64,000 nucleotides of DNA, taken from contig JAIQGG010000002.1 of NCBI GenBank assembly GCA_020072785.1, forward strand, positions 868,001 to 932,000, written 5' to 3'. This document shows, one piece after another, positions 34,051-37,417 of the stretch. The DNA is from Terriglobia bacterium (GTDB taxonomy: Bacteria > Acidobacteriota > Terriglobia > Acidiferrales > UBA7541). The notes beneath the pieces were generated by a model. That model saw nothing but the letters and a program-made list of their open reading frames with translations, had not been told where the DNA came from and did not search any database. How positions within the stretch are numbered: the first letter of the stretch is position 1; each line of letters opens with the position of its first letter. Made by a program: the position numbers and the translations under genes.

Positions 34051-34104
34051 AGCACAGACTGAAATCTGTGCTACCCGCCAGAGCACAAGTTCCAACCTGT
34101 GCTC
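34051..34104. repeat. Tandem GC-poor inverted repeats between convergent genes
   Basis: Two adjacent hairpins: AGCACAGA/TCTGTGCT (34051-34072) and GAGCACA/TGTGCTC (34081-34104). They lie between the convergent oxidase subunit gene and the DegT aminotransferase gene and could act as a bidirectional terminator. 'AGCACAGACT..TCTGTGCT' style sequences are recurrent repeats in acidobacterial genomes. Confidence 0.6.
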
Positions 34105-34125
34105 GTCATCTTCATACGCTGTTTG

Positions 34126-35265
34126 TTACTGGGTGAGGGCTTCGGCGAGGGCGTCAGCGACGCGGCGGATCTGTTCGGGGCGGAGCTCGGGGTACATGGG
34201 GAGGGAGAGGACTTCCTGGCAGGCGCGTTCGGTGTGCGGGAAGTCACCCGGCTTGTGTCCGGCGGAGGCGTAAAGGGGCTGCAGGTGCAAGGGGATGGGG
34301 TAGTAGACGCTGCTGCCGATTTTACGCTGGGCGAGGAACTGTTGCACCCGATCGCGGTTCGCTACGCGGATCGTGTACTGGTGGAAGACGTGGTCGTAGC
34401 CGGCGGGGATTTTGGGAGTGACGACGCCGGGTATTTTTTCGAGCAGAGCCGAGTATTCGGCGGCGTGCTGCTGGCGGGCGCGCTGCCAGGCGGGCAGGTG
34501 CTTCAATTTGACGCGCAGGATGGCGGCCTGCAGTTCGTCGAGGCGGCTGTTCCAGCCCGGCTCGCGGCTCACGTATTTTCCGGTTTGCCCGTGATTGCGC
34601 AGGATGCGCACGTGCTCGGCGAGCTGGGCGGAATTGGTGACCACCATGCCGGCATCGCCGCAGGCGCCGAGATTCTTGGTGGGATAAAAGCTGATGCCGG
34701 CGGCGTCTCCGAGCGAGCCCGTGGGGCGGCCCTGGTAGGACGCGCCGATGGCCTGGGCGTTGTCTTCGACCACGGGAAGATTGCGGGCGCGGGCAAAGGC
34801 CAGGATGGGGTCCATGTCCGCGGGCAAGCCGTAGAGGTGCACGACGACGATAGCTCGGGTGCGCGGGGTGAGGCGTTTTTCGAGCTCGCGCGGATCGATG
34901 TTAAAGGTGGCGGGATCGATGTCCGCGAAGGCCGGGCGGGCGCCCAGGGCGCTGACGGCGCTGCCGGTGGCCACAAAGGTGAAGGGCGGGAGGAGGACTT
35001 CGTCGCCCGGGCCCACGCCGCAGGCGCGCAGCGCGAGAATCAGGGCATCGGTGCCGGAGCCGACGCCGACGCCGTGGGCCGCGTTGCAGAGGCGCGCGAT
35101 CTCTGCGCCCAGCGCCTCGCCGTGGCTGCCCAGAACGAACTGCTGCGCGGTGAGCACGCCGTCGATCGCGGCGCGTACCTCTTCTCCGATCGCCGCGTAC
35201 TGGGCGTGCAGATCGATCTGCGGTATGGGCTGCAAGGCCGCCTCCGCCCGGAGCTTGTTGGTCAT
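34126..35265 (-). CDS. DegT/DnrJ/EryC1/StrS-family aminotransferase
   Basis: 379 residues, PLP-dependent sugar aminotransferase family. GVGVGSGTDALILALRACG starts the PLP domain, PVVEDNAQAIGASYQG holds the PLP-binding Asp, and SFYPTKNLGACGDAGMV contains the Schiff-base Lys. These enzymes aminate nucleotide-linked keto-sugars for surface polysaccharide or antibiotic sugars. It lies 36 bases downstream of the peroxiredoxin gene on the same strand. No sugar-biosynthesis neighbours are visible. Confidence 0.9.
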   Translation of the reverse strand: MTNKLRAEAALQPIPQIDLHAQYAAIGEEVRAAIDGVLTAQQFVLGSHGEALGAEIARLCNAAHGVGVGSGTDALILALRACGVGPGDEVLLPPFTFVATGSAVSALGARPAFADIDPATFNIDPRELEKRLTPRTRAIVVVHLYGLPADMDPILAFARARNLPVVEDNAQAIGASYQGRPTGSLGDAAGISFYPTKNLGACGDAGMVVTNSAQLAEHVRILRNHGQTGKYVSREPGWNSRLDELQAAILRVKLKHLPAWQRARQQHAAEYSALLEKIPGVVTPKIPAGYDHVFHQYTIRVANRDRVQQFLAQRKIGSSVYYPIPLHLQPLYASAGHKPGDFPHTERACQEVLSLPMYPELRPEQIRRVADALAEALTQ

Positions 35266-35301
35266 CGGGCGTCCGAGCGGCGCGGCGCGGCGGTCACGCG
35301 T

Positions 35302-35874
35302 TTATTTCTTCGGCAACTTGGTGCAGACGGCGATGGCATTGTTGGGATTGATGGCGCCGGAGCCTTCCTCGATGTGCTGGATCACTCCCTGTTTATCCAC
35401 GACGAAGGTGGTGCGCTGCGCCCACTCGTACTCTTCTTTTTCGACCTTGTTTATCTGGAGGATGCCGTACTGCTTGAGGACCTTGCGGTTCATGTCGCTC
35501 AGCAGGGGAAAGGTGACGCCGAGTTTTTCGGCAAAGGCGTTGTTGGCGGCGGGGCTGTCGATGCTGATGCCCAGAACGACGGTATCCGTCGCGTCCAGCT
35601 TCTGCCTATCAGCCTGATAGGCTTGCAGTTCCTTCGTTCAACCCTCAGTGAAGGCCAGGACGTAAAAGGCCAGCACAACATTTTTCTTGCCGCGGAAGTC
35701 GCCGAGGTGCACGGGCTTCCACTTATTGTCGAGGAGCGTGAAATCGGGCGCGGTCTCTCCGACCTTCAACTGGGTGTGGGCAATCTCGGTTTTTTGGCCG
35801 GCCGGAAGCCGTGGGGCCAGGCCAGCAATGAGGGCCGTGGCGAGGAAAGAAGCCGCCAAACGTCTGCGATCCAT
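35302..35874 (-). CDS. Exported peroxiredoxin (AhpC/TSA-like) with in-frame TGA at the catalytic Cys: probable selenoprotein
   Basis: 190 residues if the single TGA at 35638-35640 is read as selenocysteine (residue 79). The frame is otherwise open from ATG 35874 to the stop at 35302-35304. Residues 1-26 form a signal peptide ([21 protein letters not shown]). Then come [27 protein letters not shown], the [17 protein letters not shown], and [12 protein letters not shown]. Peroxiredoxins have TxxC here, so the TGA replaces the peroxidatic cysteine. The conserved Arg sits in [10 protein letters not shown], and Cys184 may be the resolving cysteine. A stem-loop just after the TGA fits a bacterial SECIS. 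CAGGGGG precedes the ATG. The alternative is a nonsense-mutated or misread Cys codon, but the downstream frame and SECIS position favour selenocysteine. It would reduce peroxides in the periplasm. Confidence 0.85.
35604..35622 (-). promoter_or_regulatory. Candidate bacterial SECIS stem-loop
   Basis: On the mRNA strand the arms GCCTATC and GATAGGC form a perfect 7-bp stem with loop AGGCT. The loop begins 22 nt after the TGA. Known bacterial SECIS elements have a small apical loop with a G in its first two bases, 16-37 nt downstream of the UGA; this fits. It lies inside the coding region and its bases also encode ordinary residues, as bacterial SECIS elements do. Confidence 0.78.
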
Positions 35875-35982
35875 GAAACCCCCTGCGCGGTGAATTTGCA
35901 AACCCCAATGAGTATACGCCAAGCCAAGCCGGGAACGGAACCTCATGCGGCAGCCCGGGTTTGCGCCCGGCTTCGCGGGAAA

Positions 35983-36240
35983 CTAGCGCAAGCGGCCCGG
36001 AGGATCGGCGGGGGCGGGAACCGGAGTCTGGAGGGCGTTGCCGGTGGCGTGGGCCGTGAGTTTCACCGGCGCCGGCTGGGGAATTCCCGCGCCGGCATTG
36101 AGTTCGAGGTGCTCCTTTCCGCAGCGCGGGCAGAAGCCTTTGCCGGTGTCTTCATCGCGCAGGCTGGCCAGTTCGTAGCAGCCGCAGATGCAGTCGCAGT
36201 AGCCGGTTTCCGAAGCAGTCTTGATGGGCACGAGCGCCAT
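35983..36240 (-). CDS. Small zinc-ribbon-like hypothetical protein (85 aa)
   Basis: A cysteine-rich N-terminal half, YCDCICGCYELAS then GFCPRCGKEH, could bind zinc or iron. The tail is Pro/Ala-rich. ATG 36240 (MALVPIKTAS). The GACCGC hairpin lies about 60 bases upstream. Function unknown. Confidence 0.6.
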   Translation of the reverse strand: MALVPIKTASETGYCDCICGCYELASLRDEDTGKGFCPRCGKEHLELNAGAGIPQPAPVKLTAHATGNALQTPVPAPADPPGRLR

Positions 36241-36297
36241 GAATTCTCTCCGCGGCGAGAGTGTACGCGCCCCGGCAGGCAGGCGCAAGAGCCACGG

Positions 36298-36317
36298 GTT
36301 GACCGCTTGGCGGTCAC
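36298..36317. repeat. GACCGC hairpin repeat
   Basis: GTTGACCGCTTGGCGGTCAC, one substitution from the copy at 31339, in the short gap between the response regulator end (36332) and the zinc-ribbon gene start (36240). Confidence 0.88.
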
Positions 36318-36331
36318 ACTCGAGGCGATAG

Positions 36332-37417
36332 TTACAGATCGTGGATGTGCGCCAGGCGGAAGGGCGATTCCAGATTGCGGCGTAACTCGGCCCAGTCGGT
36401 CTCCGGAATGGCATGGAAGACCTCGACGACCTGGGGATCAAATTGCGTGCCAGAGCAGCGCAGGATCTCGTCGCGGGCGTGGGTAAGGGTCAGGGCTTTG
36501 CGATAAGGGCGGTCGGAGATCATGGCATCCATAGCATCGGCGATGGCGAAAATGCGCGCCCCGAGGGGAATCTCTTCGCCCTTCAGGCCGCGCGGATAGC
36601 CCGTGCCGTCGAAGAACTCCTGGTGCGCCAGGACGATTTCCGCGGCATCGCGCAGAAAGGGAATGCGCGTGAGCATGTTGTAGCCGATATCGCAATGCGT
36701 GCGCATGATCTGCTTCTCGGCATCATCGAGCGGGCCCGGCTTGCGCAGGACGCCATCGGGGATGGCCATCTTGCCGATGTCGTGGAGAAAGGCGGCACGC
36801 GCCAGGACGGGAAGAGATTCGGGCGAAAGCTGCATGGCCTTGGCGATATAGATGGTAAAGGCGGTGACGCGCTGGCAGTGGCCTTCGGTTTCCGCGTCGC
36901 GGAGGTCGAGTGCGCTGCCCAGGGCTTCCAAGGTGTCGTCGTAGGACTGCTCGAGCTGGGTGAGAGTGCCGGAGAGCTGCGCGGTGCGCTCCTCGACGAG
37001 TTCTTCGAGGTTGCGTTGATAATTACGGTTTTCGAGGACCAGGTGGCGGTGCTGCAGGGCGCGGCGCACACCGAGGAAAAGCTGGTCCTTCTCGAAGGGC
37101 TTGAGGATGTAGTCGTAGGCACCGCGGCGAATGGCTTCCAGAGCCGTGGTGATGTCATGCATGGCGGTGACCATGATCACCGGTACATCCGGGTCATGCT
37201 GGCGCAGCCATTCGAGCAGGCGGATGCCGTCCATCTCCGGCATGATCATGTCACTCAAGACCAGGTCGGGAGCAAATTTCGGGATCATCTCCTGGGCCAC
37301 TCGCCCATTGTTTGCGGTCGCGCACTGGAAGCCCTGGGCCTCCAGCATTGTGGAGACGACTTCGCGGATCGGTTCTTCGTCGTCCACGATCAGGATTTTT
37401 TCGGTTTCCACGGTCAA
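36332..37417 (-). CDS. Response regulator with HD-GYP phosphodiesterase output (RpfG-like)
   Basis: 361 residues. Receiver domain 1-125: ILIVDDEEPIREVV, phosphoacceptor Asp in LVLSDMIMPEMDG, YDYILKPF. A coiled linker (about 125-170) leads to the HD-GYP domain: AAFLHDIGKMAIPDG, HCDIGYNML, HQEFFDGTGYPRGLKGEEIP. It hydrolyses cyclic di-GMP, probably when phosphorylated. It is divergent from the large hybrid kinase gene across a 240-base gap, so the two may form a signalling pair. A PilZ effector gene is also in the window. Confidence 0.93.
   Translation of the reverse strand: MTVETEKILIVDDEEPIREVVSTMLEAQGFQCATANNGRVAQEMIPKFAPDLVLSDMIMPEMDGIRLLEWLRQHDPDVPVIMVTAMHDITTALEAIRRGAYDYILKPFEKDQLFLGVRRALQHRHLVLENRNYQRNLEELVEERTAQLSGTLTQLEQSYDDTLEALGSALDLRDAETEGHCQRVTAFTIYIAKAMQLSPESLPVLARAAFLHDIGKMAIPDGVLRKPGPLDDAEKQIMRTHCDIGYNMLTRIPFLRDAAEIVLAHQEFFDGTGYPRGLKGEEIPLGARIFAIADAMDAMISDRPYRKALTLTHARDEILRCSGTQFDPQVVEVFHAIPETDWAELRRNLESPFRLAHIHDL

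Follow-up and report, generated by a model that had tools for sequence, protein, structure and literature searches.

In the DNA analysed here, a 64,000-nucleotide stretch from a Terriglobia bacterium (the window), a seemingly broken gene very probably codes for a functional selenoenzyme of a distinct type, and its internal TGA codon recurs in dozens of related species. It occupies positions 35302..35874 of the minus strand. Its translation, Pfam, AlphaFold and Foldseek results, together with the presence of TGA in 77 out of 84 homologous genes, indicate a 190-residue AhpC/TSA peroxiredoxin, predicted to be exported, with selenocysteine (Sec) encoded by UGA at residue 79. From these comparisons we hold with high confidence that the gene specifies a UGA-decoded Sec protein of the peroxiredoxin fold. 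A first-pass annotation had proposed the Sec reading, and every test named there for refuting it that could be run supports it.

A peroxiredoxin gene with a conserved internal TGA

The reading frame starts with an ATG at 35874-35872, immediately preceded by an AGGGGG ribosome-binding sequence recognized by inspection, and its TAA stop ends at 35302. The first-pass coordinates hold, and our analysis places the gene on the minus strand. Translation confirms that the TGA of codon 79 (35638..35640, minus strand) is the sole internal stop in 190 codons, with 111 further codons before the TAA. The aligned codons of the 84 homologous genes put this TGA at the peroxidatic position, in the motif F-T-E-G-U-T (AFTEG-U-TKEL in wider context). 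A signal peptide is predicted at the N-terminus (35797..35874, minus strand; cleavage point uncertain) from a charged start and a hydrophobic core in a simple hydropathy test. The same test recognizes a signal-peptide-like start in 70 out of 79 Sec members of the family, and most of those failing it are cut or have unclear starts. The earlier description of an exported peroxiredoxin with a TGA at the peroxidatic position is upheld by the Pfam AhpC-TSA match, by homologous Cys codons and by this predicted signal peptide.

The openness of the frame, which had been offered as an argument for Sec, is weak evidence, since 35 TGAs of the GC-rich window, the peroxiredoxin's among them, are preceded by 79 or more open codons and followed by 111 or more. 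With 34 other TGAs flanked as openly, we rejected this line of evidence. A 795-codon open frame on the plus strand (34099-36486), antisense to real genes, is likewise a shadow frame typical of GC-rich DNA and no gene.

Homologues were searched in 61 relatives, then across the class (299 genomes) and the phylum (297 genomes), with one genome sampled per species and most relatives represented by draft metagenome assemblies. Close homologues (E <= 1e-38) are found in 100 of the class genomes and 29 of the phylum genomes; most have exactly one internal TGA and some have none. The nearest named relatives encode proteins 92% identical (a Terriglobia MAG) and 73% identical (Candidatus Acidiferrum typicum), and one family member occurs in a deltaproteobacterial draft genome (L029). 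The 84 family genes, collected by tblastn against fetched loci and including a few present twice via two collections (e.g. L024 and L038), have at the codon aligned to residue 79 TGA (77), TGC (4) or TGT (3), and no other stop occurs at this codon in any of them. This conservation of TGA, with Cys codons in the other seven genes, places the TGA above chance, and the scattered other stops that the first-pass annotation had named as refuting are not seen in the relatives. Past the codons that hold the stem-loop described below, pN is 0.03-0.10 and pS 0.18-0.63 against near relatives, and pN so far under pS indicates that the second half of the gene is selected as protein.

A pseudogene or a sequencing or assembly error, with the TGA as a nonsense mutation, whether genuine or artefactual, would fit the outcome of conventional gene finding, which ends a 102-codon frame at the TGA, and the draft state of most source assemblies, but it is scarcely credible given the same TGA without another stop across many genera, the purifying selection on the protein past it and the selection on the stem-loop. 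A single pseudogene is ruled out by the comparison across homologous genes.

Two nearby family genes share a contig at L062 (G053:C11) and in G069, G101, G106, G124 and G132; further tandem genomes are G139, G172, G175, G187, G191 and G212, and each copy has one TGA in most tandem genomes. Directly upstream of the gene in the window (35983-36240, minus strand) is a gene for an 85-residue protein with CxCxC and CPRCG motifs, which found no match in a Pfam search; three relatives encode it close to the family gene, at 98, 78 and 64% identity. Many near relatives have an upstream HD-GYP response regulator in common, and the DegT aminotransferase and CtaE-like neighbours are variably present. Compared across relatives, the gene neighbourhood gives no hint of function.

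The SECIS element and the selenium machinery of the genome

A bacterial SECIS element is placed at 35604..35622 (minus strand), 15 nt past the UGA, by folding, synonymous recoding and compensatory pairs. It is a 19-nt stem-loop, GCCUAUCA-GGC-UGAUAGGC, with a G in its apical loop, and a small apical loop with a G is the hallmark of bacterial SECIS elements (PMC1088965). This G (position 26) is found in 70 out of 70 distinct Sec sequences. Against a plain dinucleotide shuffle the stem-loop is unremarkable (z -1.2), and since this score is not significant alone it was set aside in favour of synonymous recoding and control windows.

In the recoding test, synonymous codons are weighted by family usage and the same 27-nt window is folded. 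None of 300 recodings of the Terriglobia gene is as stable as the native sequence (z -3.26). Across 68 Sec genes the mean z is -2.34, with 75% below p 0.05 and 25% short of it, and seven control windows in the same genes give z values of -0.29 to +0.24. Seven Cys homologues have a mean z of -0.18, none being below p 0.05. Double-sided pair changes are seen at positions 23-31 (UA 49, CG 14), 22-32 (AU 52, UA 9) and 20-35 (GC 32, CG 19); these counts are inflated by relatedness, so that the recoding test outweighs them. The SECIS-like stem-loop noted in the first-pass annotation thus exists and is, by the recoding test, specific to Sec genes and absent from Cys homologues.

The genes proposed there as a check on Sec use are all found in the genome. 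Profile searches score selA at 451 bits, selB at 356 bits (over its cut-off) and selD at 349 bits. SelD has an in-frame TGA of its own in the motif G-U-A-A-K (GUAAKL; C1:111200-112165, L019). There are two tRNA-Sec genes, separated by 3.65 kb (C2:1112064-1112158, L002, and C2:1115713-1115807, L001), both with a UCA anticodon, an encoded CCA and G73. They differ at 12 of 99 nt and have a short upstream stretch in common; a single copy is seen in the nearest relative, G007, and G032 has a close pair. The tRNA-Sec loci L001, L002 and L067-L095 mostly have, by simple end-to-end pairing, an acceptor stem of 7 bp that leaves position 8 unpaired, and position 8 is paired in two acidobacterial tRNA-Sec (L080 and L084). 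A tRNA-Sec is detected in 52 of the 61 relatives. Three genomes at least 99% complete and without tRNA-Sec (G046, G050 and G054) contain distant homologues only, with best E values of 4e-20 to 1e-18.

A UGA decoded as cysteine by an opal-reading selC-like tRNA-Cys would also yield an intact protein, as Cys at the site would work too and UCA-anticodon tRNAs of that kind occur in some bacteria (PMC7609411). G73, however, is the tRNA-Sec discriminator (PMC5330540), U73 is typical of the selC-like opal tRNA-Cys group (PMC7609411), and both UCA tRNAs found in this genome have G73. With selA, selB and selD all in the genome as well, we rejected Cys decoding as very improbable. Global reassignment of UGA was also rejected: UGA serves as the terminator in the genes of nine Sec members of the family itself, so that its reading is decided by context.

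A search of chosen families for other selenoproteins of the genome returned active-site TGAs in formate dehydrogenase alpha (FdhA; C1:37636-38907, L161; SCNRTUHAPSV), in a cytosolic PrxQ/BCP that retains the motif Pro (C1:461348-461731, L166; FFYPKANTPGU) and in a deiodinase-like protein (C2:1313455-1313886, L167; FGSYTUPPF; Pfam T4_deiodinase, 1.8e-30). Together with SelD, these are four more probable selenoproteins.

Active site and known relatives

The read-through product matches Pfam AhpC-TSA with 121.2 bits (3.3e-35; cut-off 26) and has TxxU on this PF00578 domain (T76-E-G-U79). Sequence searches of the PDB find Sulfolobus Bcp and mycobacterial AhpE peroxiredoxins at about 35% identity. 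An AlphaFold model built from 31 homologues has a mean pLDDT of 88.6, and its first-ranked Foldseek matches are Bcp4, AhpE and other peroxiredoxins. On this sequence and model evidence, the encoded peroxiredoxin belongs to the BCP/PrxQ-AhpE group. The best solved relatives by sequence and fold are Sulfolobus BCP/PrxQ (Bcp4, 3hjp; 2ywn) and Mycobacterium tuberculosis AhpE (4x1u). These differ in being Cys-type, the matched stretch stops short of the C-terminal Cys region, and the Sulfolobus alignment has the motif Pro.

The catalytic Arg of the first-pass annotation is present as Arg154 (35413..35415, minus strand), invariant in a 31-row alignment in which Thr76 is nearly so. That annotation overlooked that the Pro of PxxxTxxC, called invariant in peroxiredoxins (PMC5719442), is missing. 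Val72 (35659..35661, minus strand) aligns to the Pro of the Sulfolobus structure, and in 76 counted Sec rows residue 72 is Val (65), Ile (9), Leu (1) or Ser (1), never Pro; 16 out of 26 Cys homologue rows have Pro there. Since PxxxTxxU is described as highly conserved in Sec peroxiredoxins in a review (PMC13188914), the clade departs from that pattern. A further distinguishing residue is Cys184 (35323..35325, minus strand), a candidate resolving cysteine that is invariant in the 31-row alignment and found in 79 out of 79 Sec members and in none of eight BCP-type outgroup proteins.

The absence of the motif Pro means that peroxidase activity is not to be taken for granted. A Sec protein of this fold acting mainly in another way, for instance as an exported thiol/selenol oxidoreductase, would be in keeping with the replacement of Pro in 76 out of 76 Sec members, with the fixed extra Cys at the C-terminus and with predicted export to surroundings in which its redox partners would differ. 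We regard this as unlikely, as Thr76 and Arg154 are retained and the Foldseek and PDB searches group the protein with peroxiredoxins.

Sec peroxiredoxins with TxxU are themselves established (PF00578/COG1225), PrxU of Eubacterium acidaminophilum being an example cited in PMC13188914 and PMC9312934. Forty-three such genes (COG1225) were reported from the Sargasso Sea (PMC1088965) and 12 in a 2006 survey (PMC1794560), so that the novelty claimed in the first-pass annotation was overrated. The available text of that survey also counts four selenoproteins of three families in Acidobacteria, without naming them there (PMC1794560); a Sec peroxiredoxin may thus be among the records already counted. 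PrxU and its family share with the present protein the AhpC/TSA fold, a UGA-encoded peroxidatic Sec in TxxU and a bacterial SECIS. The acidobacterial protein differs in its predicted signal peptide, in the invariant C-terminal Cys and in lacking the Pro of PxxxTxxU. It scores 59 bits against the NCBIfam PrxU model NF040737 (cut-off 270), and a search of NCBIfam with it gave no model over its cut-off. The genome's own cytosolic Sec PrxQ/BCP, which has Sec at the same peroxidatic place, is over the cut-off of the NCBIfam thiol peroxidase model; unlike the exported protein it keeps Pro and starts directly at the domain (MAKKTLKEGD).

Our search of the open literature found no description of the acidobacterial Sec peroxiredoxin clade. 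What appears to be new, judged from the comparisons above and the tree below, is a lineage-wide acidobacterial clade of predicted exported proteins with an invariant C-terminal Cys, without the motif Pro and with apparent Sec-to-Cys reversions. The lineage-wide distribution and the invariant Cys, like the missing Pro, had been overlooked.

Sec/Cys changes and a possible mechanism

Mapping Sec and Cys on a tree of 102 rows, in which residues 72 and 79 were masked and branches were assessed by SH-aLRT support only, requires six changes, of which branches with good support force at least four. Nested within the Sec members of the genus to which the window belongs is a Cys clade of seven rows (YVLAFSEGC) that has no stem in the members tested, and the further single Cys genes L066 and L150 likewise sit among Sec genes. 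All of these appear to be Sec-to-Cys reversions. In the reversions L049, L051, L053, L054, L056 and L058 the motif Thr is changed to Ser (AFSEGC) and Val is kept at the place of Pro. Eight Cys genes with Pro (FYPAAFTGGC) also fall inside the Sec clade; a position outside is not rejected (AU p 0.43), so that a single loss of Pro is possible. No Sec-to-Cys event is recorded for peroxiredoxins in the 2006 survey (PMC1794560), and the present tree suggests several.

From the features that sequence comparison supports, namely the conserved UGA, the SECIS, the machinery, the family and Cys184, we infer Sec insertion, export, peroxidase activity and reductant as follows. Selenophosphate would be made by SelD, itself apparently a selenoprotein here, and SelA would convert seryl-tRNA-Sec to selenocysteyl-tRNA-Sec. 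SelB, meeting the stem-loop behind the UGA, would deliver this tRNA to the ribosome. After export, Sec79 may attack hydroperoxides with help from Thr76 and Arg154; Cys184 would probably resolve the resulting selenenic acid by forming a selenenylsulfide with it, and this may in turn be reduced by a thioredoxin-like protein of the envelope. We favour this Sec79-Cys184 selenenylsulfide cycle with moderate confidence. The fuller picture of a phylum-wide clade of envelope Sec peroxiredoxins, with Pro made dispensable through Sec chemistry, catalysis by the Sec79-Cys184 selenenylsulfide and SECIS decay upon reversion to Cys, is offered tentatively and may well not hold in all its parts.

Acidobacteriota are abundant soil bacteria, and to our knowledge their use of selenium has been little studied. 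Gene finders that read UGA as a stop would truncate this enzyme at residue 78, in a peroxiredoxin clade that retains UGA across genera. If the fuller picture is true, the clade would be a natural set of paired Sec and Cys enzymes, in which the SECIS decays once Sec reverts to Cys. The loss of Pro in the Sec members, with the nested Cys reversions, would allow a direct test of why peroxidases keep selenium.
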